Positions 29,292 through 60,369 of a DNA stretch of 64,000 nucleotides are shown here, one piece after another; position 1 is the stretch's first letter; each line of letters starts with the position of its first letter. Source of the stretch: Clytia hemisphaerica. Its lineage: Eukaryota; Cnidaria; Hydrozoa; Leptothecata; Clytiidae. The DNA lies in contig CACVBU010000096.1 of NCBI GenBank assembly GCA_902728285.1, forward strand, positions 365,937 through 429,936. Direction: 5' to 3'. The position numbers and the translations under genes were made by a program. The notes beneath the pieces were generated by a model. It saw only the letters and a program-made list of their open reading frames with translations, was not told the DNA's origin and did no database searches.

Positions 29292-29341
29292 ATGAAGTAC
29301 CAGGGGTTGATCTTTCTTCTCCTTTTCACTCGCCTAAAAAC
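29292..29341 (+). CDS. Signal-peptide exon of giant dystroglycan-like gene, copy 1
   Basis: ATG in good context (GAAAATGAAG) encodes MKYQGLIFLLLFTRLK, then a split Thr. The donor ACGTAAGTT at 29342 leaves phase 2, which fits the acceptor ATTCAATTCAG ending at 29815. Copy 2 has an exon of exactly the same length (50 nt), phase and kind, which supports the call. Confidence 0.8.
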
Positions 29342-32300
29342 GTAAGTTAAAAATCTCTCAACGAACACTTCCTTCGGTTGGAACACCAAATAAATCGGGA
29401 CTCGAGAATTGAGACTTAAGGTTGGCTCCAGATTCCCATAATAATTTCTAGCTCTATAAGTTACTCATTTTAATAACAGCATAGTTCCTTGCCAGCATAG
29501 TTCACCATATAATTGAAAATTATTTACCGTTAGTTTTCTTTTCTCAAAACGTCAGGATTTCGTCTAATTTTTCCTGAAGGGTTCCTTCTTCCAAGTGACA
29601 GAAAAAAGAATTCAATGAATTAAGATTACTATAGAACCTTAACAATTGAAGCTCAGCGTTCCATGAATAAAGAACTAAACCACAATTATCCGTGTCCTTC
29701 GTTGTGTATTTGAAATATTTTTACTACATTGAATTAGAATGATAAGTAATGTAGAAAGAAGTTTAGAGCTATTATATTTAGTAAGCGCGTATTCTTTTCT
29801 TCTTATTCAATTCAGGATTGAAAGTGCAGAGCCAGTGATCAACAACGCCATAAACGAGATTAAAGTATCTTACTGTTCAACGCAAGAATACAAACTTGAC
29901 GCAAATGCTTATTCTGATGCAGAAGACGGGAATTTAGTAGGTGGAAAACTTACATTGAAACTTCTAGATGCGTCTGCAGCAACCTTCGTGCCAAATGATG
30001 AGAAGCCAGTACAATTGGTGGGAACTTCACTCTTTATTGTTCCAGTATCGACAACACAGAGTGAATTGAATCTCATTCTTCGTGTGATGGATACATCTGG
30101 ATCGTTCAAAGACGACAGGTTCAAAGTCACTTTCAACAATAAAATCTCCGTACGTGAAATCTCCTTCCACTTCACTTTGAGCAAGGTAACAACAGGAGAC
30201 GTGCAGATACAAGATCTCTTCAACTTTTACCAAGCGCTGAAAGAATTGACCACTTGGAAGACGAGAAACTTTGGTTTAAGTGAAATCACAAATGTAGCAG
30301 ACAAGAAAAAAGAAGTGGCTGTATTCGATTGTGGAATGACGCAGTCTACTTGCCCATTACAGACCATTTTGAATCTGATCAATGACGTAAAAGATCAAAA
30401 CCCAGGGCCAACCTACACGCTCAATTTTGATAGTAAAATGGCAGCAATAGACCTACAAGCCAGTGGGTTTCGCTGGGAAAAATTTGACCGCTGTATTGGA
30501 GTGTCTGGAGTACCAGACCGTGACATAAACCTTGAATTCTGGTCGTTTGCAGGAATCCAAGCGATTGATCGAACACAGGTCATCCAGGTAGAAATTCCCG
30601 ACGGAGGCTTTACTTATGAAAGTATCAAGCAAAGTACAATGACTCTCGAAATACAATCAGGACGCAATGATCCAACAATAGCTTTCGATAACTTCTGGAT
30701 TGGCGCTGAACTGGAAGGTAGTAAATGGATCATATATGCAGTGAGAACAGACCGATTTTATGAGTATATAAGTTTGACAGGGAACTTTTTCGAACACAAA
30801 GGGATCTTATATGCTCAAGTGTTTGTCTCTGCGTCAGTTCTATTACCGATCAGCGTCGAACGAAATGATTATTACATGTCAGTAGAAAACACAACGAAAC
30901 CAATGAACAACTACATTGTTGAATTCTCCGTTGGAATCACAGGAATTGCTAAACACATATATCCCAAACAAATCAACATTTTTTTATCAAAGTTGTTTGT
31001 GACATTTGGTACATCATACAAAGAATTGATCTATGTCAATGATTACGTCATCGAATCGTTTGATGGGCGAAATGGAGATGGAGTTATCCGGTGGAGCTTG
31101 ATGATGGACAAATGTGAATTTGACAGAATTGAATTCATCCGTTCAAAAATGTTTGAAAGTGGAAGCCAGGAAGAAATCAATAATGATTTTAAACTCCGAA
31201 TGAAAAGAGAATATGACTTGAGATCGATAAAGGAAACTCTATCAGGTGACTGCAACCTATCAAAACCAAAACAGAGCAGTCCGATCGGCCCATACCAGAT
31301 TTCCTACTGTGGAATAAACAGCTTCAAACTAGCAGACGATACTTTTATCGACGAAGAAGATGGCAATCTAGCGAAACTGACCGCAAAAATGACAACCGAG
31401 CAAAACAAACCAATTGGCAGTGACGATATTATTCAATTCGACGACAGCAACTAAGATCATCTATGGATTGCTACCTTCGACATACAATCCACCACTCCAG
31501 AGAGAAATCACATATAAATTAGTAGTCACTGATTCATCAAACCTTTCTACAGAAACTGTCGTTAAATTTATTGTGTCGGATGATTCAAAAACAATCCCTT
31601 ACAGTATCTCCATAACAACCAAGTTCACGGCACAGTCAACAAGCTTCAACCAAGAGTCCAGGATTGGCATTAGCTTTTAAAGTTGGTAACTATTTTGGTG
31701 ATAACGGCAATGGATTTTCTTTGGTCAGCTCACAAACTTCTTCTGATGGGAATCAAGTCATAAAGTTCGGAAATTGTACATGGTCGACACCTCAATGTGA
31801 CTTTGTTAACTTAAATTTTTACAAAAACAAACTTCTAGCCACATCAACATCCTTGAACGCACTTCTTGATTTGAAACCAGAATTTGAAGTGTTGAAATGT
31901 GGAAGAAGTTATCAAACCTCCCTGTGACAAGGACAATCCACCAGAAGTCTCAAATCCTTTACAAGATTTGTCAGTTACAACTTGTGCAACGTTTATTATC
32001 AACATTCCTGCTAATACCTTCAATGATGTCGAACAAGGAAATACAAGGAATCTGGATCTTTCCATTCATTTTTCTGGACTGCAATTCGGACAAACAGAAA
32101 TGCTACATTTTCAGGAGACAACTCAAATCATAGCAATTGTTGCAGCAGAAAGTGATTTAAATAGCTACAATTTTGAATTGAAAGCCACTGATATTGGTGG
32201 AAATCAAGCTATTGACACTTTCAGTGCCCAAGTTCAAAAAGAGGAGAAGGATCCGTCCCATATCTTCACATTTCAGTTCAGAATTCTCAAAAATGACTTT

Positions 32301-35300
32301 CAAAATTATGTAGAGCTGTACAGTTTTGTTCGTCGAAGGTTCAAAGAATTTTTTGGTGACAGAGAAACCGATAATACTTTTCAAATTTTCAAAACTGAAA
32401 AAGTATCATCTGGTTATGGGAAAGATTCTGTGCATATTATTGAATGGTCCAACTGTACAATAACAAGAGATGAATGCAAAAAGGAACAAATAGAACGTCT
32501 CAAATCGCGTGTGTTCGATGGAGATGTGGTTAAAAATGAATTCAAACAATCGTTCCAAACAGACTTTTTTATTCTGGCTTTATCTTTCAAATTATTTGGT
32601 GTTTGTGATGTTGACCCACCAGTTGTTCAAAATCCGATTCCTGACCAAAACCTTGGGTTTTGTGGACCGCTGACTTATCAGATTCCCGAGAACACATTCA
32701 AAGATTCAAACGATGGAAACACAAGAGCTTTGCAACTAAAGATGACTTTTGAGAATGGTGAGCAGATTCCAGACACTTTCTTCGTTCAATTCAATGAGGA
32801 GGAGCAAACGATCTATGGAGTATTGGCGGCTGAAAAGGATACAACTCTAGCTGGAGAGTACAGTTTCGCCATTATAGCTAAAAACAGTAAAGAAAAGACC
32901 GCAAAAGCAATTTTAAAGTTGACAATCGATTCAGCCAAAAAGACAGTCAGTCATGTGTTCAAGCTCAATTTTTCATGGAAGGAGAGACAAAGTCAAATTG
33001 AGGTTTTGTCAAAAGTTGCAAACAAATTGGCAACGTTCTTCGACTTTTCGGGAAACTTTTATATTTATAACTACAGGGTGCTTACTACTTTCGGTTCGTT
33101 GACATTCACTACCTGCAATGCTAAGTATTCTCCATGTGACAGAGATTTGATTGCTGCAATCGAGAGTAAAGCCATCCTGAATGGACAACCTAGTGATTCG
33201 CTAAGAGAATCTTTAGGAAATAAGTACACCATCTTTTCTTTTCGAAGACTTCTTATTGGCGATTTCTGCTTACCTCAACCAAAGAAGCCAACGTACGTCA
33301 AACCATTTCAACCATTCACCATCGAAATATGCAAAACGTTTCGAAGAAATTTTGACTCGAAAACATTCGTGGATGAAGAAGACGTAAAATTGAATTATTT
33401 GGTGACAAAAATTGATAACAATTTCGTGAACGCCGAGTCCTCGTGGATTTCAGTGGATTCTTCAAGTCATCAGTTCATTGGCATCGTCCCAACAAACATC
33501 TTCTCGGCTACACAAAGCTTGAAATATAATGTCAGTGTTCGAGCAATCGACTCAGATAACATGCATGCCAATGGTGACGTTCTAGTTACGGTTAGAAGGG
33601 CTCAAATCAACTCTTTTTATATCTTCGAAAGTAAAATCAAGCCAAAAGACAGCCAACTCACGAGTCCAATTGATATCAAAATGAAGTTTTCTGACGGGGT
33701 CAACAGATTCTTTGGTTCCGACGCAGCTATGAGTATTTCAGGTTTTGAAGCAAATAATGACATTTACACGATTCGCTGGCAAAACTGTCTAATGGTGACA
33801 TCTTGCATTAACGAAGCTGCTCTTCAAATTTTGAAAAGTAACATCATACAAGGAGAAAACCAACCAGTTCAAGACTTCAGTGACGCTTTGTCAGAATTCG
33901 ACGTATTGGAAATGGGTCTCAATATCGCAGATGTTTGTAAAACAGATATTAACCCACCAACTTCAAAAGACAACCCTTTAGAAGTTCGTTTGCCGATTTG
34001 TGGAGGATTTGTGTATCAGATTCCAGAGGACCAGTTTACAGACACAGAAGATGGAAATACGAGAAGTCTTGAAGTTTTTTTGACAACTGATACAGACAGT
34101 GAAGTCAACATTGTATACAACTGGATGGCATATGATGTAACAAAGCAAACATTGACAGGGTATCCAACCTTGTTTGAAGCTACTCTTTTCAATCAAGAGA
34201 AGAAGAAACTCATTTTAACAGCTCGTGATAAAACTGGTCTCACCTCAAAAGTTGACCTGGTGGTAACGTTCAAGGAGATTAACGAGCCAAAGTTTTTCTT
34301 TGTGATTGGTATGATAACACAAGAGACAAGTGAAATGGTGAAAAACTTCGAGCTATCTGAAAAAATATCAGAATATTTGAAGGATTCTAACAATAAAAAC
34401 ATTGGAATCAAAAGTATAACCAGTAATGAATTGAAGTTCTTTAACTGCTCGATCTCATATAGTCCTTGTGATTGGGCTTCATTGATCCAAATAAAGTCAG
34501 CCTTGGCTACAGATAACATTCCTAATCCTGGATTGAAGGAGCTTTTGATGCCGAAATATGATATCACCTATGTATCCGTTGAATATGACCTTCCTTGCAA
34601 AGATGATGGTGTAAATCCACCAAGTACACGAGAAAAAATCAATATTGAAATAAGTATTTGTGAGTGGATAGATTTCGTGGTGCCAGAAAATACATTTTAT
34701 GATTTGGAGGATGGAAACACAAGAAAACTTCAACTCAGCTTTCAGTCTACCTTGAGTCAGCCATTTGATAACTGGATACTATTCAAACAGCAAGACCAAA
34801 AGTTCCATATCAATACATTGGCAAATGTGGCAATAAACCAGCCTGCTGAAGGATATTCATTCTCAGTCATTGCAACGGATTCTTCGTCAAGAACAGCTTC
34901 AACCGAGATGAAAATAAAAATCACTGGTCCTTTCAGTATCCTCGAAGAATGTAAATTGAAAATGTCATTAACAATTCTTAATCAACTAACTATGAGCTCG
35001 ATTTCTCTGATGAGAATGCTGATTTCGAAGATGGCCATCTACTTCCAAATCAAAACTGAAGAAATTGGAGCAGTAGATTTTCAAATAGATTCACAAATGA
35101 AACAAGTCACATTCTTCTGGTCTTATTGTTCTGATGTCTACAGGAGAGTTGAATATCAGACCGACTCAAAAGCACTCATGGTTGACTACTACAACTTCAT
35201 TGTGAAAATACTGTTAAAACTTTATCAAAACGATCGTAAAACAATTCGCAGCGAGTTCCTCCAGTCGTTTGGCAGTGAAATTCAAGTCAATGAAGTCATT

Positions 35301-38300
35301 CCTATGTTTAGTGGAAGATGTCAAAATTTACCACCTATTGTGTATCCTGGAACAGCGTCTCTGCAAATGGATGTTTATTACTACGGGTATTCAAGCCAAA
35401 TCTATCAAAATACAATATTTTACGACTTTGAGGATGGATGGACTCATTCTTTGCATGTCACAATGAGGAATTCTAATCGCGCAAGTTTATTCATTGACAG
35501 TTGGATTAACGTGGACAATGTTTCATATAACATTTATGCAGTTGCAAATTCCTTTGTTAGATCACTCACAACCTACAGTTTCACATATTATCTTTACGCC
35601 CAAGACTCTGGTGGACTTGAAGCAAATATCGCAATCACTGTGAATATAATCAAGAGTACTCTCAACTTATCTCCATTCAGATTTTCCTTTATCTATATTT
35701 ATAGAGGATCACCAGGTCAAGTCTTTGTTAGCCAAACCGTGTATTTGATACAAAAAATCATGCTTTATTACACCATTACTTCAAATCAAATTGTCACTTT
35801 TAGCTACACTGTGACTTATGGGAATTTGAATTATCGCCTGATGATCTGGTCTGTATTGCAACAAGATTGTCAATCAAACATCTATCTTTCTACAGCAAGC
35901 ATGAGATCTCTCTCAGATGGATCACTCAATCAAAACTTTGTCAACCAATTCAAAGACTTTATGGATTTAAAGAATATTTTCATCAGCACAACATGCCAGC
36001 CAAAGACAGAAGTCGTGATCAATTATAACATAACCTTACCACAGATAACATTCTGTCAAGTTTTTTCTTATCAACTTAAATATGACCTATTCTATGACCC
36101 TGTCGACGGAGGGATGTCAAATATGCAACTTCAACTAATGAATGAGAATGGAATGCTTGTCTCAAAATCATCCTGGCTTCAAATAAATCCAACATCTTTA
36201 CAATTATACGGTGTTGCAATTAGACGAAACTATCGTCGTTCAGCGTCCCAAAAATTTCAACTTAAGGTCACCAATGGCAGAGGAGTCACAAATAGCTTAG
36301 CCTTTGAAGCAGTCATCAGTGATGAACCTTTCACGACAGATTGTCCAATCACAATGAGTTTCACTTACAAATACTTTACAGAAAGCACACAGAATATCGA
36401 TGTCTTAACAGAGATGATCAGAATGCTGCAAAAATATTACAACGATCAAGAGGTAAACATCAAAGTTCTCAGTTTTCAAAGAGTGGATTCGACTTTTACA
36501 ATGGTTTGGAGTAACTGTTCCAGCTCATTCAGATCATCCACTCTCTCTACAGCCAAGAATGGATACACAGAAGAAAATCGCCAAAAGATCAAATTTGTTT
36601 TTGACAAGATTTACATGAACGGCCAAATCAAACAAGAATTTCAAACCTTTATGAGCCAATGGAGTTTGCTGATTTCTTTTGTATCTGTCAGTTACTGTTG
36701 TATTGAGAAAGGACCAGTAGCTAAAGAGAATGAAATTCGTTTACATGTCGACTATTGCAAACCAGTTAATTACATCATTCCCGAAGACATGTTCAACGAT
36801 GAATGTGATGGTTCTACACGAAACTTGCAAATGAAATTATTTTATGCGAATGACCAAGAAATCGATAGTAATGAATGGATCCAACTTAATAAGGAGCAAG
36901 CAATATTTGGGATCGTCACAGAGGTAGTCAAGATGAACTCTCCTCAAAACGGATACAGATATCTTTTAAAAGCATTCGATTATTCTGGCAGATCAACAAG
37001 TATCAGTGTGATTGTAAACATCATTGGAAATATACCAGATTATGAAGCTTATTTTGTGACAGGATATTCAAATACTAACAATGAAATGGTTTCAACTACA
37101 CAAATACTATACGAAACCTACCAGCATTTGGTAGGGATGATTGATTCACAAAACCAAGTTGACTCTCCCAACATATTTATCAAAGAATTTCAATACCCAG
37201 AGGTCATCACTTGGACCAAATGTGAATTATCTGAATGTGACCATGGAAAAGTTTACTAGCATTTTGGACAAATTCCAAATCCAAAGATATGACGCAATAC
37301 CAAATACTAAATTCATCGAATCAGCATCCTCTCAAATGACACCCTACTGGATTCAATCGTTCATCTTTAACCAACAGTGCGGTTCTGGGATCATCATCAT
37401 AACAGTTAACCCAGAAATTCCAAAGGAAGAAAACAAAGGTAACTGTGAAATGTTCACTTACCAAATCCCTTCAAATCTCTTCGTTGCATCTACACAGATG
37501 GATTCCAGGAACTTCGTGATGACAGCACGATTTGTTGGTAGTCAAAGCATCACAACTTCATCATTGATTCAATTCAATCAAGCAAAGCAAACATTTTATG
37601 GGTATGCAGTCTCATACCTAATGCAATCTTCATCTTTTCAAATGGAAGTGACTGCAACTCATCCTCAAAGTGGACAAAAAGCTTCAACTGAAATCAAGAT
37701 CAACTTTCCAAACAAAACAATAACTGACAATCTAAATGAAACCATCTGCCTTATAAATACGACCTTGATATCAAAATACCGAGCAGTCTATCCTGATGTT
37801 GATATATTGTCAAAGTTTTCACAATTGATTACAAGCTACATAAAAACATCCAATATCGAAATCGTGTGGTACAAACGGCAACAATTAAACAACTCTGTCT
37901 GGTCAATACTTTGGACAGATTGCTTTGCTCTATACACTTTCTACCAAAATAAAAATGGTATCCAATATTTCAACACCATGGAGACAACCATCAGCAGTCT
38001 TATTCAATCGAATGGTGAATTAAATCAAGACTTCCAACAGTTCTTACAAAAGTACGAATTTTTCAAGTTCATAAATATCACGACATCTGAAGGTTGTGGG
38101 GAGCCTCCAAATACACCACCTGACCCAAAAACACCAGTAGAAGTTCTTATGCCAGATTGTGGTGCTTTCGAATTCCCATTAGAAGAGGATGCCTTTGTGG
38201 ATGGTATTGATGGAAATACAAGGAATCTGGATGTAGAGATGATGTTCGTGGATGGAAAAGCTGTTCCTGAAGATTACTGGATAGTTCTCAATAAGACTCA

Positions 38301-41300
38301 ATTCTTCGTGGGCTCTGTGAATAAAGAAATCATTGAAAATCAGCCTGAAGGAGGATATGAATTTAAGCTCGTAGCTACAGACAGTGGAGGATTGTCATCA
38401 ACTATGAAAATAAAAGTCAAACATTCTGGAAAACAACTACCTAATCCAGACTACAAATTTAATGTTGTTGGAAAAATTGCAGAAGATTTTCAAAGTGAGG
38501 TTATTTCAGTGATCAAAATAGAAATCCTTAAGGCCGTTAGCAACTATGTTCGACCAAACCAAGTAGAAGCCTACAAAACATTCTACTTCGAAACCTTCAC
38601 TGTTGGTGATAAAATACGTTTTACAGTATCCCAATGCAAAGAATGTGACCCATTCCAAATTGCACCATTTGAGCTGATGGATAAGTCAAAAGCAGAAAGT
38701 ATATTTGAGAGCATCGTAAACGTCGAAGATGCAAACGCTGAAATATTCGATAAGTGCGACATAATTAAAACAGTGAATCCTGATTTTCAGTTGGAGATGA
38801 AATATTGTGAATATTATAGATACAGCTTCGTCCAGCAGTTTGGTGAATATTTTAAAAATCAACTTGATTATAAACTCACTGACAAAAATGGAAACGACAT
38901 TTCCTCGTGACTATTTCCTGTATTTCAACAAAGATGAATTAACAGTTGAAGCTTTTCCAACACCACAAATCTGGAATGATGCCCCAACAATCTATGAATT
39001 TCATTTCCTTGTAACTTTTGCGTTTCAACCAAATACCCCAGCCAAATTCTTATACAATCTAACGGTACCAGAGGTTAGAACTTTTCCAAAGACAGCCGAT
39101 TATTCAATAGTGATTCAAACATCGGAAAGTCAAGAATTGCCAGACGGTTATTTTATCAGTAAAACGCTAAATAACATTCGAAAGATCATCAATGATAACG
39201 AGGGAAATATAACGTTTTACAATTTTCAGAGACTTTCGACGGACCCGTTTCAATACAGAATTGATTGGAAAATTTGCATTGTTGGTGAAAAATGTGACAG
39301 CAGCTTTGTGAAGAATATAACTGAAAAACTACTGAATAATGAACTTCAACCATCAGATGATATAGTAGCAGCATTTTCTCCTGATAGCATACAAAACATT
39401 GAAACGGAATGTGAAAACCGACCTCCTACAGCTATGAAAAACTACACAATAGTGATCAAACCATGCGGGCATTTCATCTATCAGCTTCCAAGGAGTCTGG
39501 CCAAAGATGAAGAAGACGGAGATTTATATTCAATGTCCATTCAATTGAAAAACAAGGATGGATCTTCACTTGATAGAACGTCCTGGGTGCAACTTAACGA
39601 AGAGACGAAATCTATAATAGCAATACCTACTGCTAAAGCTTATGAAAGTCTACTCCAAACACCGTTAAACTTTCTTTTACTCATCACCGATACTGAAGGA
39701 AAGTCGATAGAAACAATTCTCATATTGACTGGCGAGGAAAAATCAAGCGATTCTTATTACAGTACAACGATAACTTTCCAGAATAATTTGGGCACCAATG
39801 CTCCTTTTGTTGAAATTCAAATAGTGATCCTGCGCAACATTGCTTCCACGAATAGCAGTAATTCTTTGGATGATTATCGCTTAGTTGACTTTAAAAAGCT
39901 TGCAAGTGATGAAAGCAGTTATCAAATGATCTATTCCATTTGTAAAATTGACGAAACTGTCTGTGTTCCTGAAGATAATGAAATCAAAACATCCGAGAAA
40001 CAATTACAAAACGACGATGGAAAACCATCGACAGAATTGATTAACAAACTTTCTCCTGACATTCTGCTCAAAGACATTCAGTTTACCAAGCGGTACACCA
40101 TTGACGAAGTCCCAAAAACAGCAGAAGATTCTATTAAACTGGCAGTCGATTCTTGTTGTCATAGCAGATTGTATTGTTTAGAAAATGACATTTTTGTCGA
40201 CAAAGAAGACGGGGACATAAAAAACTTGAAATTGTCTTTGATGAGAAGAGATACTTCACCAAACAGCGATTTTGTTGGATTAGTTGATGATTGCATTTAC
40301 GTTGTGTCTTATCAAAACTTTCTTCCAGGTATTTACAATTTCGTTTTGGAAGCTCAAGACAAATGCAACAACACTAAACCTATCAATATTGAAGTTGAAG
40401 TTTTGAAGAAATGCAAAGACGAGTTTGGTGTTGAATTTTCTGTCGACATCGAGAAACCAGCAGGAGAAAAAATTGATCAAAAAGATGTGTACCGCATCAA
40501 GAGTGAGCTAGAAAAATACTTCAGTACTGAAGATAATATTGCAGTAATTAGCAAAGAAGAGCAAACATCTGGCAAATACACCCTAAATCTGGGGTATTGT
40601 ACCTTGGATATCAATGCATGTGACTTGAAGTCAGTTGAAGAAATTATCTCCAAATTGGACGAGAATGGCGAATCAGAACTTACAAGCATTTTAAAAATTA
40701 TGAATATAGAGCTACAAGACATCAATATAGAGAGAAAAGGGGATTGCACAAAGCCCCCTTTTCCACCTCCAGAATCAAAACTCGAAAAATTGGAATTCAA
40801 CGTAACATATTGTGAGCATATGGACGTCAAAATGGCTGAAGACACATTCTTCAACCAGGAAGGATTGTCAACTCGAGATTTTCAGTTGCAATTATTGACG
40901 GTAGGTGGCAAAGATGTTGGGAAAGATTCTTGGATTCAATTGAATAAAACATCACAATCAATTTATGGATATATTAGATTCAGTGACAACCAAAACCAAC
41001 CCAAAGCCTTCAACTTTACGTTGTTTGTGAGGAAAAACGAGCAGGACCGTGGATTGAAAGTACCTCTTTGTGTTTATGTCATTGGTGAAGAGCCTGTTCT
41101 CGACTATCAAATGAATATCAAGTCCACAATCTTAGGTGATGCTTCAATGCCTAACGTGTATTACGAAATAGAAATGACTAAATTTCTCGCAAGCTTTTTT
41201 GGAAGAGGATCACTGAATAATTTGGGACTAGCTCGCTCATCAAGCTCGTTGAATGAAATTGAAAGTTTTAAATTTAGCTTTTGCAACGCAAGGAAGAAAA

Positions 41301-46094: not shown

Positions 46095-49000
46095 GTGAGC
46101 ATCACTTAACTTTACGTGTTCCTTATAATCAAGAGTCTATTTTTCGCCTTTGAATATACTTATGCTTATAGGAGAACCTTTGCAGAATATGTTTATTGTA
46201 TGTATGTATAAGGTATTGCTTTAAGACGCATCGGGGCAGCAAATTTTTTTCCGTAAGCGGCCCAAGCCCTGATTTAGCGGCCCAAGACCTGAATTACCGG
46301 CCCAAGACCTGGGAAACTTTGCGATTTTTGAGACTTGCTTTTTTGCCATGATTTTAGAACTTATAGTGGCCCAAGACCTGAATTATTGGCCTAAAAAGTT
46401 ATAAAAAACTAGTAGAACACATTTATCAAATAAGATCATTAAATTGAAGTACTTTTCCATGGGAATATAACGGTTTGATCATCTTCTTTTTCCAAAAAAG
46501 CAAGTCTCAAAAGTCGCAAAGTTTCCCAGGTCTTGGGCCGGTAATTCAGGTCTTGGGCCGCTAAATCAGGGCTTGGGCCGCTTACGGAAAAAAATTTGCA
46601 TCGGGGCATAGGAGTAGTGCAGTAAAAATATTGCTGAAAATCCCAAAATATATTAAGTATAAGGAAAATTACAAATTGATAATTTTCTACTTCAATAGGA
46701 CTGACTGTGCAGCTCCACAAGCAAAGAAAAAGATACAAGAAATCAGAGTTTCTTATTGCTCAGCGAAAGAATACCCGATCGAATTAGATGCTTATACGGA
46801 CGTAGAGGATGGAGATTTAGGTGATGGGAAACTTACATTAGAGCTTTTGAATGCATCTGCTGAAAGTTTCGAAGCTGACGAAAAGAACCCAATACAATTG
46901 ATTAATTCAACACTCTATATAATACCAGTGTTTGGGGAAACGCAACAAAAGAATGGCAAAACTGAAGAGGAGCGCTTTTACATTTTGAGGGTTAAGGATA
47001 CAGAGGGATCGTTTGTCGATGATAATTTCAATATAGTTTTTTCTGGAAAACCGAAGGACGCCCAAGTCATTTTCAATTTTACACTAAAACATGTCCATTC
47101 AGAGGCTGCTTTGTCTTTTTATGACATTTACAACTTTTATGAAAACTTGGTATCTGAAAACCTTTGGAGCGGGAGAAGTTTAACGACAAGATCAATCTCC
47201 ATTGGAAAGAATAGAACAGAACTTGAAATAATTGACTGCGACATCGACGCTAGCACATGCGAGACAAGGCTCATCGAACAGCATATCAACAAAATTAAAG
47301 ATCAAAATCTCATCCCTACTTACACTCGTAACGTTGAAAATCTCAGAAAAACTATTGAAGTTGAAGTCATATCATTTAAGTGGAGAGCAATTAGCTCTAA
47401 TTGCATCGCTGCAATCAAACCTGTCGATTCCATTGGAACAAACAAAAATGCTGGATTTTGGACGTATGACGAGAAAACGGTCAGATATACACTGAATCAA
47501 ACGAAAGTGATTGAAATTGCTATGCCAAATAATGCATTGACGCGGGAAGATATCAATCCATCTGAATTGACAATTGCTGTCAGGGAACTCAATCAGGATA
47601 TCAAGATAATAGATTTTTGTGGATCACAAATTGAAAACGATCAATGGAAAATATATTTGCTTGCAACTGATGCGTTTTATGAGTATTTATCAAGACCACT
47701 TGACGGAAAATTTGACATCTCGCCAATTATAGCGAGTCCAACTGTAGAGGGTAGATTATACGGACAGGTTATTATTTCAATGCATGCAAGGTTTTTGGAA
47801 GATCTAATGGGCACAAATTATGCTTTCATTTTGAGCAAAAGTACACGACCAGTGAACAAATACAAGGTTACTTTTTATATGTACGTAAATGAAATTTCTA
47901 ATTGGATCTTTCCAAAACAGATACAGCTGTTTCTCACCAAATTACACAGAGTGTTTGGGTCCGAATACAAAGACTTGATATACATAAATTATTATACTAT
48001 CAAAGAATTTCAAAGCAGAAATGGTTATGCCGAGATCCAGTGGAGTTTACTGTTGGATTATTGCAATTTCCCTATGATCGAGTTTCTGCGAACAAAAATG
48101 TTTGTCGATGGAAACAATCAAAACATAACCCAAGAACTGATCAATGAAATGAACGAAGAGTTTCGCATCGAGAAAATTATAGAAAACGTGACAAGCTGTA
48201 CTTTGAATCCTCCAGTTCAAATCAGACCAATTCGTCCAATTACCCTCTCTTACTGTGGCGTAACAGTTTATCGAATAGAAAATAATACTTTTAAAGATGA
48301 AGACGGCGATTTGTCAAAACTTGACGTTCAACTTCAAGATGAGCAAGGGAGAAAGCTCACAGGCACTGACATTATTCAATTCGACGACGCAACTAAGATC
48401 ATCTATGGATTGCTACCTTCGACATACAATCCACCACTCCAGAGAGAAATCACATATAAATTAGTAGTCACTGATTCATCAAACCTTTCTACAGAAACTG
48501 TCGTTAAATTTATTGTGTCGGATGATTCAAAAACAATCCCTTACAGTATCTCCATAACAACCAAGTTCACGGCAGAGTCAACAAGCTTCAACCATAGTCC
48601 AGGATTGGCATTAGCTTTTAAAGTTGGTAACTATTTTGGTGATAACGACAATGGATTTTCTATGGTCAGCTCACAAACTTCTTCTGATGGGAATCAAGTC
48701 ATAAAGTTCGGAAATTGTACATGGTCGACACCTCAATGTGACTTTGTTAACTTAAATTTTTACAAAAACAAACTTCTGGCCACATCAACATCCTTGAACG
48801 CACTTCTTGATTTGAAACCAGAATTTGAAGTGTTGAATGTGGAAGAAGTTATCAAACCTCCCTGTGACAAGGACAATCCACCAGAAGTCTCAAATCCTTT
48901 ACAAGATTTGTCAGTTACAACTTGTGCAACGTTTATTTTCAACATTCCTGCTAATACCTTCAATGATGTCGAACAAGGAAATACAAGGAATCTGGATGTT

Positions 49001-52000
49001 TCCATTCATTTTTCTGGACTGCAATTCGGACAAACAGAAATGTTACATTTTCAGGAGACAACTCAAATCATAGCAATTGTTGCATCAGAAAGTGATTTAA
49101 ATAGCTACAATTTTGAATTGAAAACCACTGATATTGGTGGAAATCAAGCTATCGACTCTTTTATTGTCCAAGTTCAAAAAGAGGAGAAGGAGCCGTCCCA
49201 TATCTTCACATTTCAGTTCAGAATTCTCAAAAATGACTTTCAAAATTATGTAGAGCTGTACAGTTTCGTTCGTCGAAGGTTCAAAGAATTTTTTGGTGAC
49301 AGAGAAACCGATAATACTTTTCAAATTTTCAAAACTGAAAAAGTATCATCTGGTTATGGGAAAGATTCTGTGCACATTATTGAATGGTCCAACTGTACAA
49401 TAACAAGAGATGAATGCAAAAATGAAAAAATAGAACGTCTCAAATCGCATGTGTTCGATGGAGATGCGATTAAAGATGAATTCAGACAATCGTTCCAAAC
49501 AGACTTTTTCATTCTGGCTTTATCTTTCAAATTATTTGGTGTTTGTGATGTTGACCCACCATTTGTTGAAAATCCGATTCCCGACCAAAACCTTGGGTTT
49601 TGTGGACCGTTGATTTATCAGATTCCAGAAAGCACATTCAAAGATTCAAATGACGGAAACACAAGGGCTTTGCAACTAAAGATGACTTTGGAGAATGGTG
49701 AGCAGATTCCGGACACTTTCTTCATTCAATTCAATGAAGAGGAGCAGACGATCTATGGAATTTTGGTGGATAAAAACAATGACAACTTGCCAAGTGTGGT
49801 TTCATTGAAAATAACAGCAGAAAATGCAGGAATGAAATTTGCTGAAACATCATTCAAAATCTTTATTACTAAAAACAAGAAAGCGTTTAGTGTGACCTTC
49901 AAAATGAGATATGCTAGGCCTAAACAGCTTGATACAGTGGATAATCTAGTTAAAACATCAAAACTGTTGACCGAATACTTGGAATGGAATATAGACGATT
50001 TTTATGGCTATAAATACAGCACCTTTGGGAAGCTCACTTCTTTTACATTTTCAACATGCAAAGCAAAGTTCTCTCCCTGTGATAGGAAAGTCATTGAAGC
50101 AGTTGAAAGTAAAGCTATTGAAAATGGCCAACCAAGCGAATCACTTAAATCATCAATGAGCGTTCAGTTGCAAGTTCAAAATTTTCAAAAAGTAAGAATA
50201 GGAGACGAGTGTATTCCAAAAAATAAACCAGAATACGTCAAACCATTTCAACCATTCACCATCGAAACATGCAAAACGTTTCGAAGAAATTTTGACTCGA
50301 AATCATTCGTGGATGAAGAAGACGTAAAATTGACTTATTTGGTGACAAAAATTGATAACAATTTCGTGAACGCCGAGTCCTCATGGATTTCAGTAGATTC
50401 TTCAAGTCACCAGTTCATTGGCATCGTCCCAACAAACATCTTCTCGGCTACACAAAGCTTGAAATACAATGTCAGTGTTCGAGCAATCGACTCAAACAAC
50501 ATGCATGCCGATGGTGACGTTCTAGTTACGGTTAGAAGGGCTCAAATCAACTCTTTTTATATCTTCGAAAGTAAAATCAAACTAAAAGACAGCCAACTCA
50601 CGAGTCCAATTGATATCAAAATGAAGTTTTCTGACGGGGTCAACAGATTCTTTGGTTCCGACGCAGCTATGAGTATTTCAGGTTTTGAAGCAAATAATGA
50701 CATTTACAGGATTCGATGGCAAAACTGTCTAATGGTGACATCTTGCATTAACGAAGCTGCTCTTCAAATTTTGAAAAGTAACATCATACAAGGAGAAAAC
50801 CAACCAGTTCAAGACTTCAGTGACGCTTTGTCAGAATTCGACGTATTGGAGATTGGTCTCAATATCGCAGATGTTTGTAAAACAGATATTAACCCACCAA
50901 CTTCAAAAGACAACCCTTTAGAAGTTCATTTACCGATTTGTGGAGGATTTGTGTATCAGATTCCAGTGGACCAGTTTACAGACACAGAAGATGGAAATAC
51001 GAGAAGTCTTGATGTTTTTCTGACAACAGATACAGACATTGAAGTCAACATTGTATACAACTGGATGGCATATGATGTAACAAAACAAACACTGACAGGG
51101 TATCCAACCTTGTTCGAAGCTACTCTTTTCAATCAAGAGAAGAAGAAACTCATTTTAACAGCTCGTGATAAAACTGGTCTAACATCAAAAGTTGACCTAG
51201 TTATTATATTCGAGGAGATCAACGAACCAAAGTTTTTCTATGTGGTTGGTATGACAACACAAGAAACGAGCGAGATGAAAAAAAATTTCGAACTATCAGT
51301 AAAAATAGCACAATTCTTAAATGGTAGTCACAAAGACATTGGGGTCAAAAGTATAACAAAAGAGAAGTTTATATTTTTTAATTGTACAATGACTTTTATC
51401 CCTTGCCATTGGGCAGCCTCGAATCAAATCCTTACGAAGTTAGGTGAGAAAAACCGTCCGAATGAAGTACTCAAAACATTGCTATTACCGAAATATGATA
51501 TTTTATATGTTGCTGGTGAATATGATCTTCCTTGTAGCGAAGATGCTGTGAATCCACCTATTCTCAAATTTGAACTAGAAACGATTTCAATTAGTATGTG
51601 TAGATGGATGGATTTCGTGGTGCCAGAAAATACATTTTATGATTTGGAGGATGGAAATACAAGAAAACTTCAACTCAGCTTTCAGTCTACCTTGAGTCAG
51701 CCATTTGATAACTGGATATTATTCAAACAGCAAGACCAAAAGTTCCATATCAATACATTGGCAAATGTGGCAATAAACCAGCCTGCTGAAGGATATTCAT
51801 TCTCAGTCATTGCAACGGATTCTTCGTCAAGAACAGCTTCAACCGAGATGAAAATAAAAATCACTGGTCCTTTCAGTATCCTCGAAGAATGTAAATTGAA
51901 AATGTCATTAACCATTCTTAATCAACTAACTATGAGCTCAATTTCTCTGATGAGAATGCTGATTTCGAAGATGGCCATCTACTTCCAAATCAAAACTGAA

Positions 52001-55000
52001 GAAATTGGAGCGGTAGATTTTCAAATAGATTCACAAATGAAACAAGTAACATTCTTCTGGTCTTTTTGTTCTGATGTCTACAGGAGAGTTGAATATCAGA
52101 CTAATTCAAAAGCACTCATGGTTGACTACTACAACTTCATTGTGAAAATACTGTTAAAACTTTATCAAAACGATCGTAAAACGATTCGCAGCGAGTTCCT
52201 CCAGTCGTTTGGCAGTGAAATTCAAGTCAACGAAGTCATTCCTATGTTTAGTGGAAGATGTCAAAACTTACCACCTATTGTGTATCCTGGAACAGCGTCT
52301 CTGCAAATGGATGTTTATTACTACGGGTATTCAAGCCAAATCTACCAAAATACAATATTTTACGACTTTGAGGATGGATGGACTTATTCTTTGCATGTCA
52401 CAATGAGGAATTCTAATCGCGCAAGTTTGTTCATTGACAGTTGGATTAACGTGGACAATGTTTCATATAACATTTATGCAGTTGCAAATTCCTTTGTTAG
52501 ATCACTCACCACCTACAGTTTCACATATTATCTTTACGCCCAAGACTCTGGTGGACTTGAAACAAATATCGCAATCACTGTGAATATAATCAAGAGTACT
52601 CTCAACTTATCTCCATTCAGATTTTCCTTTATCTATATTTATAGAGGATCACCAGGTCAAGTCTTTGTCAGCCAAACAGTATACTTAATACAAAAGTTCA
52701 AGCTTCATTACACCATTACTTCAAATCAAATCGTCACTTTTAGCTACACTGTGACTTATGGGAATTTGAATTATCGCCTGATGATCTGGTCTGTATTGCA
52801 ACAAGATTGTCAATCAAACATCTATCTTTCTACAGCAAGCATGAGATCTCTCTCAGATGGATCACTCAATCAAAACTTTGTCAAACAATTTAGAGACTTT
52901 ATGGATTTAAAGAATATTTTAATCAGCACAACATGCCAGCCAAAGACAGAAGTCGTGATCAATTATAACATAACCTTACCACAGATAACATTCTGTCAAG
53001 TTTTTTCTTATCAACTTAAATATGACCTATTCTATGACCCTGTCGACGGAGGGATGTCAAATATGCAACTTCAACTAATGAATGAGAATGGAATGCTTGT
53101 CTCAAAATCATCCTGGCTTCAAATAAATCCAACATCTTTACAATTATACGGTGTTGCGATTAGACGAAACTATCGTCGATTGGCGTCCCAAAAATTTCAA
53201 CTTAAGGTCACCAATGGCAGAGGAGTCACAAATAGCTTAGCCTTTGAAGCAGTCATCAGTGATGAACCTTTCACGACAGATTGTCCAATCACAATGAGTT
53301 TCACTTACAAATACTTGACAGAAAGCACACAGAATATCGATGTCTTAACAGAGATGATCAGAATGCTGCAAAAATATTACAACGATCAAGAAGTAAACAT
53401 CAAAGTTCTCAGTTTTCAAAGAGTGGATTCGACTTTTACAATGGTTTGGAGTAACTGTTCCAGCTCATTCAGATCAACCACTCTTTCTACAGCCAAGAAT
53501 GGATACACAGAAGAAAATCGCCAAAAGATCAAATTTGTTTTTGACCACATTTACATAAACGGCCAAATCAAACAAGAATTTCAAACCTTTATGAGCCAAT
53601 GGAGTTTGCTGATTTCTTTTGTATCTGTCAGTTACTGTTGTATTGAGAAAGGACCAGTAGCTAAAGAGAATGAAATTCGTTTGAATGTCGACTATTGCAA
53701 ACCAGTTAATTACATCATTCCCGAAGACATGTTCAACGATGAATGTGATGGTTCTACACGAAACTTGCAAATGAAATTATTTTATGCGAATAACCAAGAA
53801 ATCGATAGTAATGAATGGATCCAACTTAATAAGGAGCAAGCAATATTTGGGATCGTCACAGAGGTAGTCAAGATGAACTCTCCTCAAAACGGATACAGAT
53901 ATCTTTTAAAAGCATTCGATTATTCTGGCAGATCAACAAGTATCAGTGTGATTGTAAACATCATTGGAAATATACCAGATTATGAAGCTTATTTTGTGAC
54001 AGGATATTCAAATACTAACAATGAAATGGTTTCAACTACACAAATACTCTACGAAACCTACCAGCATTTGGTAGGGATGATTGATTCACAAAACCAAGTT
54101 GACTCTCCCAACATATTTATCAAAGAATTTCAATACCCAGAGGTTATCATATGGACCAAATGTGAATTATCTGAATGTGACCATGGAAAAGTTACTAGCA
54201 TTTTAGACAAATTCCAAATCCAAAGATATGACGCAATACCAAATACTAAATTCATCAAATCAGCATCCTCTCAAATGACACCCTACTGGATTCAATCATT
54301 CATCTTTAACCAACAGTGTGGTTCTGGGATCATTATCATAACAGTTAACCCAGAAATTCCGAAGGAAGAAAACAAAAGTAACTGTGAAATATTCACTTAC
54401 CATATCCCTTCAAATCTCTTCGTTGCATCTACACAGATGGATTCCAGGAACTTCGTGATGACAGCACGATTTGTTGGTGGTCAAAGCATCACAACTTCAT
54501 CATTGATTCAATTCAATCAAGCAAAGCAAACATTTTATGGGTATGCAGTCTCATACCTAATGCAATCTTCATCTTTTCAAATGGAAGTGACTGCAACTCA
54601 TCCACAAAGTGGACAAAAAACTTCAACTGGAATCAAGATCAACTTTCCGAACAAAACAATAACTGACAATCTAAATGAAACCATCTGCCTTATAAATACG
54701 ACCTTGATATCAAAATACCGAGCAGTCTATCCTGATGTTGATATATTGTCAAAGTTTTCTCAATTGATTACAAGCTACATAAAAACATCCAATATCGAAA
54801 TCGTGTGGTACAAACGGCAACCATTAGACAACTCTGTCTGGTCAATACTTTGGACAGATTGCTTTGCTCTATATACTTTCTATCAAAATAAAAATGGTAT
54901 CCAATATTTCAACACCATGAGGACAACCATAAGCAGTCTTATTCAATCAAATGGTGAATTAAATCAAGACTTCCAACAGTTCTTACAAAAGTACGAATTT

Positions 55001-58000
55001 TTCAAGTTCATAAATATCACGACAACTGAAGGTTGTGGAGAGCCTCCAAATACACCACCTGACCCAAAAACACCAGTAGAAGTTCTTATGCCAGATTGTG
55101 GTGCTTTCGAAATTCCATTAGAAGAGGATGCTTTTGTGGATGGTATAAATGGAAAAACAAGGAATCTGGTTGTAGAGATGATGTTCGTAAATGGAAAAGC
55201 TGTTCCTGAAGATCACTGGATAGTTCTCAATAAGACTCAATTCTTCGTGGGCTCTGTGAATAAAGAAAGCATTGAAAATCAGCCTGAAGGAGGATATGAA
55301 TTTAAGCTCGTAGCTACAGACAGTGGAGGATTGTCATCAACTATGAAAATGAAAGTCAAACATTCTGGAAAACAACTACCTAATCCAGGCTACAATTTTA
55401 ATGTTGTTGGAACAATTGCAGAAGATTTTCAAAGTGAGGTTATTTCAGTGATCAAAATAGAAATCCTTAAGGCCGTTAGCAACTATGTTCGACCAAACCA
55501 AGTAGAAGCCTACAAAACATTTTACTTCCAAACCTTCAATGTTGGTGATAAAATACGTTTTACAGTATCCCAATGCAAAGAATGTGACCCATTCCAAATT
55601 GCACCATTTGAGCTGATGGATAAGTCAAAAGCAGAAAGTATATTTGAGAGCATCGTAAACGTCGAAGATGCAAACGCTGAAATATTCGATTCGAAGTGCG
55701 GCGGAATTTACCCATATAATCCTCCTTTTGAATTATTAAAGGTGAAATATTGTGAATATTATAGATACAGCTTCGTCCAGCAGTTTGGTGAATATCTTAA
55801 AAATCAACTTGATTATAAACTCACTGACAAAAATGGAAACGAATTTCCTCGTGATTATTTCCTGTATTTCAACAAAGATGAATTAACTGTTGAAGCTTTC
55901 CCAACAACACAAATCTGGAATGATGCCCCAACAATCTATGAATCTCATTTCCTTGTATTTTTCGCGTTTCAACCAAATACCCCAGCCAAATACTTCTACA
56001 ATCTAACGGTACCAGAGGTTAAAACTTTTCCGAAGACAGCTGATTATTCAATAGTGATTCAAACATTGGAAAGTCAAGATTTACCAGACGGTTATTTCAT
56101 CAGTAAAGCACTAAATAACATTCGAAAGATCGTCAATGATAACGGGGGAAATCTAACGTTTTACAATTTTCAGAGACTTTCGACGGACCCGTTTCAATAC
56201 AGAATTGATTGGAAAATTTGCATTGTTGGTAAAAAATGTGACAGCAGCTTTTTGAAGAATATAACTGAAAAACTACTGAATAATGAACTTCAACCATCAG
56301 ATGATATAGTAGCAGCATTTTCTCCTGATAGCATACAAAACATTGAAACGGAATGTGAAAACCGACCTCCTACAGCTATGAAAAACTACACAATAGTGAT
56401 CAAATCATGCGGGCATTTCATCTATCAGCTTCCAAGGAGTCTGGCCAAAGATGAAGAAGACGGAGATTTATATTCAATGTCCATTCAATTGAAAAACAAG
56501 GATGGATCTTCACTTGATAGAACGTCCTGGGTGCAACTTAACGAAGAGACGAAATCTATAATAGCAATACCTACTGCTAAAGTTTATGAAAGTCTACTCC
56601 AAACACCGTTAAACTTTCTTTTACTCATCGCCGATACTGAAGGAAAGTCGATAGAAACAATTCTCATATTGACTGGCGAGGAAAAATCAAGCGATTCTTA
56701 TTACAGTACAACGATAACTTTCCAGAATAATTTGGGCACCAATGCTCCTTTTGTTGAAATTCAAATAGTGATCCTGCGCAACATTGCTTCCATGAATAGC
56801 AGTAATTCTTTGGATGATTATCGCTTAGTTGACTTTAAAAAGCTTGCAAGTGATGAAAGCAGTTATCAAATGATCTATTCCATTTGTAAAATTGACGAAA
56901 CTGTCTGTCTTCCTGAAGATAATGAAATCAAAACATCCGAGAAACAATTACAAAACGACGATGGAAATCCATCGTCAGAATTGGTGGACAAACTTTCTCC
57001 TGACATTCTGCTCAAAGACATTCAGTTTACCAAGCGGTACACCATTGACGAAGTCCCAAAAACAGCAGAAGATTCTATTAAACTGGCAGTCGATTCTTGT
57101 TGTCATAGCAGATTGTATTGTTTAGAAAATGACATTTTTGTCGACAAAGAAGACGGGGACATAAAAAACTTGAAATTGTCTTTGATGAGAAGAGATACTT
57201 CACCAAACAGCGATTTTGTTGGATTAGTTGATGATTGCATTTACGTTGTGTCTTATCAAAACTTTCTTCCAGGTATTTACAATTTCGTTTTGGAAGCTCA
57301 AGACAAATGCAACAACACTAAACCTATCAATATTGAAGTTGAAGTTTTGAAGAAATGCAAAGACGAGTTTGGTGTTGAATTTTCTGTCGACATCGAGAAA
57401 CCAGCAGGAGAAAAAATTGATCAAAAAGATGTGTACCGCATCAAGAGTGAGCTAGAAAAATACTTCAGTACTGAAGATAATATTGCAGTAATTAGCAAAG
57501 AGCAAACATCTGGCAAATACACCCTAAATCTGGGGTATTGTACCTTGGATATCAATGCATGTGACTTGAAGTCAGTTGAAGAAATTATCTCCAAATTGGA
57601 CGAGAATGGCGAATCAGAACTTACAAGCATTTTAAAAATTATGAATATAGAGCTACAAGACATCAATATAGAGAGAAAAGGGGATTGCACAAAGCCCCCT
57701 TTTCCACCTCCAGAATCGAAACTCGAAAAATTGGAATTCAACGTAACATATTGTGAGCATATGGACGTCAAAATGGCTGAAGACACATTCTTCAACCAGG
57801 AAGGATTGTCAACTCGAGATTTTCAGTTGCAATTATTGAAGGTAGATGGCAAAGATGTTGGGAAAGATTCTTGGATTCAATTGAATAAAACATCACAATC
57901 AATTTATGGATATATTAGATTCAGTGACAACCAAAACCAACCCAAAGCCTTCAACTATACGTTGTTTGTGAGGAAAAACGAGCAGGACCGTGGATTGAAA

Positions 58001-60369
58001 GTACCTCTTTGTGTTTATGTCATTGGTGAAGAGCCTGTTCTCGACTATCAAATGAATATCAAGTCCACAATCTTAGGTGATCCTTCAATACCTAACGTGT
58101 ATTACGAAATAGAAATTATTAAATTGCTCGCAAGCTTTTTTGGAAGAGGACCGCTCAATAATTTGGGACTAGCTCGCTCATCAAGCTCGTTGAATGAAAT
58201 TGAAAGTTTTAAATTCAGCTTTTGCAACGCAAGGAAGAAATCATGTGATTGTGTTTTAATTAGAGAGACGCAATCAAAATCTACTGATGGAAATGGTATA
58301 AGTTCCATATCGAACGATTTGTTTCTATTTAGAGAGGCAGAAACAATAGTTCAAGGGAAATGTTCCGAATCTAAAGCTCCAGTTATCAATAAAGATATAA
58401 TCGATTTCATTCAGCTAAGAAAAGGTGAGATTTTCGAGGTTTCCGTACCAGAAAATGCTTTTACGGACGATGAAGATGGAGGTATGTCAAACCTGACACT
58501 GTGTATAAAAGATAATCAAAATCGCCAGCTCGACAAAACAAGTTGGATGAAAGTGAACCAGGAGAAGATATGCGGTGTATACACACTGAACGAACAGCGA
58601 AATCAAATTTCGACTAATAAACTTGAGAAATTCAATTTAGTTGCTAAAGATGGCTGTGGAAAAGAGGCTTATAATACATTTACTGTCATCCTTCAAGAAA
58701 GTGAAATCAAAGCGAGTGCTTCATACTGTTTAATAATAGATGAAAACATTGAACAGTTTAAGAAAGACTGTTCAAAAGTAGAAAATATCGTTGAAATAAT
58801 CGCTGAGAAGTTTATAATCCCTGAATCTGATGTTATTATTACAAAGATAATATCAAAAGATGAAAACAAGACACAATTTGAGTGGCAAATCCCCAATAGT
58901 AATGACATAACTTGTACAGTTCAAGAAAAATCTTCAAAACATATCTTACCAAATGGAAATGTAGATAATGATTTTGTTCTGCAACTTGACAAAGTTAATG
59001 TCAAAGTTGAAGAAATTCTGATTAAGTGCGTGTCAACTGATACAATAAAGACGCCAGATAAGAGCGAATTTCCATGGTGGGTTATCATTCTGCTCATAGT
59101 TATACTCGTTCTGCTCTTTCTTATTTGGTGCTTGTGGTTGTTCATACCAAGATGCTGCAAAGAAAACTGTTGTTTGTCTTTGTTTTGTGAAAGATGTTGT
59201 ACCAAGTCTGGCAGGTTTTCCTCGCTTAATAATGAAAATGATCCTGATTATGACGAGAATAAAGAACCAATTGTTGACTCTGACTCTATTGATGGGATGC
59301 CCATGGTTTACACCAAATTTAACAAAGAGTCAGACACCAGTTCAAATCCAAGCACCAAAGGAGAGCTAGTTGATGGGAAATTTTCGAAACCAAAGAGGAC
59401 GAAACATCTATGGATTCTGGTCAATTTTCAGATCCACTTGAGCTACCGCCACTATATGATCATCAACATGGTTATATTGATTCACCGGGAAATATTCAAA
59501 CATCTACTACAAAAACAATCACAAACAAGAGAACGACTGGACGAGATTTCAATCGCATAGATGAGCGTGATGTTAAATTAGATTTCAACACACATCGAAC
59601 TGATCAAATAGATCAAGGTCACCAGAAAAGTCAAGCTTTCTATGAATCTTGGAAAGACCCTCAACAAACAAACACTGATTATCAATCAATTCGCTATGTC
59701 AATAGACAATACAAAAATAATCAAACACCTCCTGGATACATAGAAGAGTTTTATAACGATAATCGGCAAGCGACCATAGGCTCGTACGCTGGCTTCAATA
59801 ACTATGAAGAGAGAAGATACAACGAGCAAAGAAGAGCTCGAAGAGCTCGAAGAGCTAAAATTAAAAGAGGTGACGATCATCTTCTTGTAAGAAGAAATAA
59901 AAGCAATAGAATAGAGAATGAAGATCGCTACCGCCGAAACTACCACATTATTGACGAAAGAAATTTGCGTCAAAACCTATCTTATGGAAATGATCATTCC
60001 GAACAAGTCACTGTTACTCTTTCAAAATTGCTGTTCAATAAATATCTGAGGGAGCAAAACCTGAAGGTTCAACAGAACAGTAAATACAAAAGATATTACA
60101 CCAAGAAACGGAGCCGCAACGTGGATGCTTTGGTAGACAATAGATATATGAGTTCAGGTCGGAACAACATATATTGCGTACATTCACCTGGTACATCATC
60201 TTCAAATGACATTTATATTGCAGACACTGCAACTGGTTATACGTCAGACACAAGTGATAGAAATTTTTATATCATGCGACGAAAGAAACAGACTGGTGAC
60301 GTAAATAGTAAAAATCAAGCCAAAATACATTATATTCGTAAAAGAAGGGCTTCGAGCTCTGAAGTTTAG
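46045..60369 (+). CDS. Giant dystroglycan-like transmembrane protein, copy 2
   Basis: Exon 1 46045-46094 and exon 2 46699-60369, a single 13.7-kb exon. An unbroken frame runs to about 59395; one missing base there must be allowed to reach the conserved tail, giving about 4,573 residues. About 17 CADG + SEA/S6-like modules start near 46729, 48211, 48871, 49549, 50225, 50890, 51550, 52268, 52940, 53645, 54330, 55040, 55710, 56360, 57045, 57690 and 58370, a period of about 680 nt (225 residues). CADG units show C-x-x-F-x-Y-x-IP...F-x-D-x-x-DG-x-T-R; SEA-like units show W-x-N/x-C, then C, then DG, then a closing Cys. The TM helix is at about 59075-59150, followed by a Cys-rich juxtamembrane stretch (CCKENCC, CERCC), PPLY (in LPPLYDHQHG), a second PPGY, and RRARRARRAKIKR. 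No Ser/Thr/Pro mucin region is seen, unlike vertebrate dystroglycan. Predicted role: cell-surface adhesion receptor linked to WW-domain proteins. Confidence 0.85.
46230..46608. mobile_element. Mutator-like MITE with 9-bp target duplication inside intron 1 of copy 2
   Basis: ATCGGGGCA at 46230-46238 and 46600-46608 is a perfect 9-bp direct repeat flanking a 361-bp element. The element's ends are near-perfect inverted repeats of about 105-110 bp (46239-46345 against 46490-46599), beginning GCAAATTTTTTTCCGTAAGC and containing three GGCCCAAG(C/A)CCTG units. Long TIRs with a 9-bp duplication are the Mutator (MULE) pattern. There is no coding capacity. The intact duplication implies a fairly recent insertion. 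Confidence 0.88.
59380..59410 (+). other. Apparent one-base deletion (frame change) in the copy 2 tail
   Basis: Left of this point the conserved frame ends KGELVDGKFSKPK. Right of it the frame homologous to copy 1 (DSGQFSDPLELPPLYDHQHG) lies one base back. Read without correction, translation leaves the conserved tail and stops at 59560, after an unrelated sequence of about 55 residues. There are no GT/AG borders that would make this an intron. Confidence 0.75.
59410..60369 (+). CDS. Cytoplasmic tail of giant copy 2 (PPxY-bearing part)
   Basis: Open for about 319 codons to the TAG at 60367-60369. It starts with FSDPLELPPLYDHQHGYIDS, has a second PPxY (TPPGYIEEFY), an Arg-rich stretch (RRARRARRAKIKRGDD), a VTVTLSKLLFNKYLREQ helix and an RSRNVDALVDNRYMSSGR block. 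Copy 1 has the same blocks but lacks the second PPxY, and its extreme C terminus is diverged. It could also be translated only through frameshifting or from an alternative transcript; homology with copy 1 argues that it is normally joined to the upstream frame. Confidence 0.75.
   Translation: MDSGQFSDPLELPPLYDHQHGYIDSPGNIQTSTTKTITNKRTTGRDFNRIDERDVKLDFNTHRTDQIDQGHQKSQAFYESWKDPQQTNTDYQSIRYVNRQYKNNQTPPGYIEEFYNDNRQATIGSYAGFNNYEERRYNEQRRARRARRAKIKRGDDHLLVRRNKSNRIENEDRYRRNYHIIDERNLRQNLSYGNDHSEQVTVTLSKLLFNKYLREQNLKVQQNSKYKRYYTKKRSRNVDALVDNRYMSSGRNNIYCVHSPGTSSSNDIYIADTATGYTSDTSDRNFYIMRRKKQTGDVNSKNQAKIHYIRKRRASSSEV

Follow-up and report, generated by a model that had tools for sequence, protein, structure and literature searches.

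In a 64-kb stretch of the Clytia hemisphaerica genome (hereafter the window, whose numbering is used throughout), two neighbouring genes, g1 and g2, both on the plus strand and 2.7 kb apart, probably encode adhesion receptors that cross the membrane once and have a rod-shaped ectodomain of about 18 dystroglycan units of the IG2_MAT_NU type (i.e., a cadherin-like plus a SEA-like domain), most of them uncut and stapled. At the level of sequence, the modules are homologous to dystroglycan, a signal peptide, a transmembrane helix and a tail with PPxY motifs are present, and the Gly-Ser maturation site is absent from the 17 aligned g2 modules. In addition, an extra pair of cysteines occurs together, the two rods share near-identical blocks next to a divergent tip, membrane-proximal module and transmembrane helix, and conventional dystroglycans are found in the same genome.

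Repeat modules and their relation to dystroglycan

An iterated hidden Markov model (HMM) seeded from one module identified 17 complete modules in g2, together with a single SEA-like half. With half-sets, a nine-module model recovered the other eight and an eight-module model recovered all nine (E 1e-31 to 9e-8), the best E among 102 shuffled or reversed controls being 0.12. The SEA part of the lone half, g2 module 2, scored E 1.6e-5 with one half-set model and 6.9 with the other, and the cadherin-like part ahead of it was seen by neither (E 16 and 35). In an alignment that also included g1 and one more gene (L034), the whole module 2 stretch matched the module profile with an hhalign probability of 95.9 (E 5e-9 in this one-profile comparison, 209 columns), and we include it as an eighteenth, divergent module. 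The rest of the window gave no module match with E below 0.8. An earlier note, made from the DNA letters alone, had estimated about 17 repeats of paired CADG and SEA-like domains of the dystroglycan type, an interpretation supported here.

The g2 modules match dystroglycan by sequence profile at E 4.9e-29, and Pfam DAG1 is above its cut-off in one open reading frame (ORF) of each gene. The predicted structure of g2 module 4, the one module folded, supports a CADG plus SEA-like module of the dystroglycan type. The best protocadherin match reached only E 0.043, and classical cadherins and protocadherins were therefore rejected as the family of the modules; the contrary outcome that the earlier note had set out beforehand, that the modules would prove to be plain cadherin or Ig domains, did not occur. 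The NU cysteine equivalent to Cys669 occupies the exact column in 57 of 68 aligned rows and lies within 3 columns in 14 of the 17 g2 modules.

Related genes in the genome

In the 417-Mb assembly (951 contigs), 17 DAG1 matches were found, and the greatly expanded family that had been proposed does extend to further arrays. The locus C435 carries 22 modules and a partial one over three neighbouring ORFs, the last with a transmembrane helix, which we infer to form one gene; C598 is its haplotig (98.3% identity over 12,992 aligned sites). C504b has 20 modules and a transmembrane helix, with two split modules that are probably interrupted by introns, and C368 is its haplotig (92-97%). The proteins of C330 and C504a are 97-100% alike over four modules, with further matches over about 34 kb. 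C232 and C788 were dropped as leucine-rich repeat proteins. Finally, C791 and C373 are conventional dystroglycans with one module, an S/T-rich stretch, a GS site, a transmembrane helix and PPPY near the end of the tail.

Cut site and extra cysteine pair

The module alignment comprises 68 rows, 65 from arrays and three from single-module dystroglycans. The Gly-Ser maturation site (hydrophobic-x-R/K-GS-three hydrophobic residues) occurs in 0 of the 17 aligned g2 modules; six array rows have GS at 3 to 12 residues from the site, and C435_07 has no letters there. Two extra cysteine positions, the first immediately before strand 2 of the cadherin-like domain and the second just past the strand that follows the former cut site, are both filled in 47 and both empty in 12 of the 61 array modules scored, with 2 exceptions (four of the 65 array rows were set aside for gaps). 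This co-occurrence gives a Fisher value of 5e-11, which is inflated by relatedness, though the 12 modules lie in several parts of the tree. Among the single-module dystroglycans, both cysteines are absent from two of the three rows; in C373 one is absent and the other position falls in a gap. All four giant genes compared (C435, C504b and the close paralogues g1 and g2) have an incomplete pair in the module nearest the membrane, the last of the array. Judging from the co-occurrence, the pair would in most modules form a disulfide tying the would-be alpha and beta parts together; since 12 of 61 modules are without both cysteines, the rod is not stapled throughout.

Several observations weigh against a rod of mostly uncut, stapled units with a WW-binding tail. 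The large exon of g1 is split over several frames rather than forming one ORF, and the frame of g2 shifts at one place, between 59374 and about 59400. Gly-Ser is exact in one of the 65 array rows, C504b_04 (DGSAIL), and lies one column off the site in g1 module 5 (g1_04 of the tree). Other modules without the cysteine pair are g2 module 9, four from C435 and, of the 18 from C504b that were used, the first five. The tail ORFs do not match DAG1 or pass the cut-off of any other Pfam family, and the part of C504b read behind its transmembrane helix contained no PPxY; binding of WW domains may therefore not be a general property. In the module tree, g2_08 (g2 module 9) groups with C435_02 and not with C504b.

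Gene structure and reading frames

The exon structures were read from the DNA sequence, without transcripts. From its 50-nt first exon, g1 extends to a stop codon at 43372-43374; from a candidate 50-nt exon, g2 extends to 60367-60369. This candidate was the single one in 43375-46698 to pass a filter on length, phase, donor and hydrophobicity. The two adjacent genes are thus of the same design, as had been described, on the same strand and each with a 50-nt first exon (for g2, the candidate) and a large exon, and a short 5′ coding exon followed by one large 3′ exon is the gene layout of dystroglycan. The accompanying claim of one 13.6-kb exon per gene holds for the length of g2 exon 2, whereas that of g1 is not one open frame and g2 continues from a single open frame (46565-59557) into another (59374-60366).

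These breaks bring up the possibility that g1 is a recent pseudogene of g2, in which case only g2 and the other arrays would matter, a reading that we regard as unlikely but worth weighing. Relative to g2, the frame of g1 is broken by nine single extra bases (near 31446, 31652, 31895, 37252, 38898, 41297, 42144, 42506 and 42906) and a further length change near 41329, and no second haplotype of the locus is among the matches listed. However, no in-frame stop occurs across 4442 gap-free codons of g1 read against g2, although a gene that had been free since the last exchange should have about 12 in the similar blocks (see below) alone; three g1 stops in another count lie downstream of g2's stop codon. 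Eight of the nine extra bases fall within these similar blocks, which otherwise differ in length only by multiples of three. Moreover, a +1 step is also found in the Helitron-like ORFs of the window, and C598 differs from C435 by 4, 1 and 17 nt within coding stretches, showing that frame errors are not limited to g1. The g1 breaks are thus probable assembly errors; a very recent loss of g1 is the unlikely case just described.

Transmembrane segment and tail

The single transmembrane helix near the C-terminus (by hydropathy in g2) and the PPxY tail were correctly anticipated, with PPLY in both tails and PPGY in g2 only. The tail nevertheless differs from that of dystroglycan to which it had been likened: besides the missing DAG1 match, both motifs are internal, and the last ~15 residues contain no PPxY. 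Since PPLY is internal and there is no Pfam match, binding of WW domains by these tails is plausible, and binding of dystrophin would be a guess. A Cys-rich juxtamembrane stretch follows the helix in g2 (59147-59230), C435 and C504b and is not seen in the conventional dystroglycans; it is a possible palmitoylation site. The g2 protein ends in SSEV (60345-60369), which we take to fit a class I PDZ ligand, and g1 in QQTL, which presumably does not.

It is rather improbable that g1 and g2 are ordinary dystroglycans, i.e., laminin receptors with a long spacer that work with dystrophin. The module homology and the PPxY motifs would suit such a role, and models of dystrophin/dystrobrevin-type EF-hands and of sarcoglycan also match in the genome. 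However, the g2 ORF 46565-59557 contains no mucin-like stretch (at most 24 S, T or P in 60 residues) and no furin site, a terminal PPPY is absent from the tails, and the genome already has its two conventional dystroglycans. Thus, g1 and g2 carry the IG2_MAT_NU unit and belong to the dystroglycan superfamily by module, yet they are not dystroglycan by its full definition, because the maturation site, mucin region, furin site and terminal PPxY are missing.

History of the arrays

The tree of the 68 modules contains five starred one-to-one groupings of g2 and C504b, all with an offset of k to k+3 (6-9, 7-10, 9-12, 11-14 and 16-19, numbering g2 without module 2 and C504b with its split modules); the 11-14 grouping is on the program's list of long-branch joins and may be false. 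In addition, g2_17 and g1_17 pair with two C504b modules. The kept offset suggests that the array is older than the split of these genes.

Under a two-state model, g1 and g2 are similar in eight blocks (93-99% over 9,663 sites) and diverged in nine (44-70% over 3,914 sites); the last diverged block lies mostly at or behind the coding end of g1. Divergence covers the tip (modules 1 and 2 and the beginning of 3), stretches within modules 5-8, a short segment of 14, segments at 17-18, most of module 18, the transmembrane helix and parts of the tail, other tail parts being 93-99% alike. Synonymous sites are near saturation in the diverged blocks and mostly differ by a few percent in the similar ones, and both classes of block have a nonsynonymous/synonymous ratio of about 0.3. 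The simplest reading is gene conversion of the rod between old paralogues.

The mosaic pattern of ~97% and ~54% blocks in these tandem paralogues is also what a polymorphic self/non-self receptor might display, with tip blocks kept different and rods exchanged as in allorecognition. We hold this to be quite improbable, given that the diverged blocks, taken together, show no sign of diversifying selection (ratio about 0.27), that the C435 and C598 haplotypes are so close, and that the membrane-proximal module, transmembrane helix and parts of the tail have diverged too. Multiplication of the modules by misassembly, for which one could cite the frame errors and haplotigs of the assembly, has a negligible chance of being correct, since the g2 modules are only 16-21% identical to module 4 and thus old, their order is partly common to another locus, and the same arrays appear in haplotigs.

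Proposed mechanism

According to PMC6586460, the cadherin-like and SEA-like domains of dystroglycan together make up a switch in which protease sites stay hidden until it is destabilised. We propose that this unit, in ordinary dystroglycan a cut, force-sensitive switch by the membrane, would here have been turned into a structural repeat, most copies of which may no longer be cut. In most modules a disulfide would link the cadherin-like half to the end of the strand that follows the old cut site and thereby keep the module from separating there. Only the membrane-proximal module is apparently unstapled in each of the four giant genes compared; extension or shedding under load would thus be most likely at that point, although the pair is absent from some other modules as well. 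The divergent tip may set the ligand, either matrix or a neighbouring cell, the rod would set the reach, the PPxY tail may recruit WW-domain proteins (dystrophin or others), and gene conversion would keep most of the rods alike. More tentatively, and with rather less confidence than in the receptor architecture itself, we suggest that these "poly-dystroglycans" could be a separate dystroglycan-derived receptor class, in which a mostly uncut, mostly stapled block was multiplied into a very long tether, an unstapled membrane-proximal module yields, and rods are converted as tip, anchor and parts of the tail diverge.

Other features of the window and assembly

The ORFs at 7755-15330 presumably belong to the Helitron family and comprise a large N-terminal part, a helicase part and an RPA-like ORF, with one frame step. 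An intact single-exon class-A G-protein-coupled receptor lies at 18643-19917 (Pfam 7tm_1, E 2.8e-35), and tandem direct repeats of about 124 nt occupy 27291-27751. Between g1 and g2, 45000-45476 is a dispersed repeat; at least 55 genome matches were found for 45000-46000, nearly all in its first half. The mitochondrial contig C900 (14,551 bp; genetic code 4) has cox1 at its very end and the terminal order nad1-nad4-cob-cox1, cox1 being identified by Pfam and the other genes by reading translations; this is the order given for hydrozoans in PMC13119343 and PMC4655093.

Table 1. Coordinates of g1, g2 and associated features in the window
Feature	Position	Strand	Remarks
g1 exon 1	29292..29341	+	50 nt, signal peptide MKYQGLIFLLLFTRLK, then GTAAGT donor
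g1 exon 2 (large exon)	29816..43374	+	frame interrupted relative to g2
g1 module 1	29823..30482	+	diverged from g2, 40% at amino acid level
g1 transmembrane helix	42134..42202	+	approximate, by eye
g1 tail PPLY	42464..42475	+	motif
g2 exon 1 candidate	46045..46094	+	50 nt, signal peptide MTNILGYLLWIFIFYS, then GTGAGC
Miniature inverted-repeat transposable element (MITE)-like element	46239..46599		g2 intron 1; 107-bp inverted repeats, 99% identity
g2 exon 2 (large exon)	46699..60369	+	13,671 nt; frame change between 59374 and about 59400
g2 module 1	46700..47332	+	HMM
g2 module 2, divergent	47333..48196	+	SEA-like half by HMM; cadherin-like half by profile-profile comparison only
g2 module 3	48197..48865	+	HMM
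g2 module 4	48866..49546	+	folded; DAG1 Pfam match
g2 module 5	49547..50212	+	HMM
g2 module 6	50213..50884	+	HMM
g2 module 7	50885..51541	+	HMM
g2 module 8	51542..52273	+	HMM
g2 module 9	52265..52939	+	HMM; without extra Cys pair
g2 module 10	52940..53638	+	HMM
g2 module 11	53639..54334	+	HMM
g2 module 12	54335..55045	+	HMM
g2 module 13	55046..55693	+	HMM
g2 module 14	55694..56350	+	HMM
g2 module 15	56351..57055	+	HMM
g2 module 16	57056..57694	+	HMM
g2 module 17	57695..58366	+	HMM
g2 module 18, membrane-proximal	58367..59065	+	HMM; without extra Cys pair
g2 transmembrane helix	59075..59146	+	followed by Cys-rich juxtamembrane stretch
g2 tail PPLY	59446..59457	+	motif, also in g1
g2 tail PPGY	59728..59739	+	motif, not in g1

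Comparison with known systems

Dystroglycan connects the matrix with the cytoskeleton, muscular dystrophies result when this link fails, and the unit next to the membrane is under study as a switch. Receptors of 18 to about 23 units in an animal that also has ordinary dystroglycans amount to a natural experiment on the function of the unit in the absence of the cut, and the idea of stapled versus unstapled modules becomes directly testable. To our knowledge, the SEA-like domains of protocadherin-15 and cadherin-23 are not repeated as pairs. These two proteins are described as having SEA-like domains in PMC6586460, and the best protocadherin sequence match to the modules has only the E value given above.

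Vertebrate dystroglycan (DAG1; PDB 8yt8, 9c3c and 8uf4) shares with g1 and g2 the IG2_MAT_NU fold and sequence, a single transmembrane helix, a PPxY tail and a large 3′ exon, whereas it has one unit cut at Gly-Ser, a mucin region, a furin site and a C-terminal PPxY; its IG1-S6 N-terminus may be a further difference. The published IG1-intron interrupts IG1 (PMC5216574); the intron of g1 and g2 instead follows the signal peptide. According to PMC4582122 and PMC5216574, tandem IG2_MAT_NU modules lie inside the large exon, with duplication in Trichoplax and some other lineages. The Trichoplax protein, as described in PMC4582122, resembles g1 and g2 in its duplicated module and in being without the terminal dystrophin-binding site, but it is a mere duplication.

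The nearest precedent is Nematostella vectensis dystroglycan, for which six tandem IG2_MAT_NU modules are given by Adams & Brancaccio (2015, PMC4582122); expansion of this module, which the earlier note did not know as described, has thus been published. That paper also gives the Gly-Ser maturation site as missing in Nematostella (where a GP motif is found) and in nematodes, as it is in the aligned g2 modules. In Nematostella the last module is described there as nearest to human dystroglycan, whereas here only the last module of C435 groups with the single-module dystroglycans, with weak support (92/64). Compared with that account, the Clytia arrays differ in having 18 to about 23 modules, several genes, conventional dystroglycans beside them, an extra Cys pair (scored here only) and a long tail without a DAG1 match. 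The record of dystroglycan expansion, so far six modules in a single anemone gene, thereby grows to include a multi-gene family. As far as the open-access literature searched shows, the array size of 18 to about 23 modules is new, as are the presence of several such genes in a genome that also has conventional dystroglycans, the Cys pair, and the mosaic of rod and tip.
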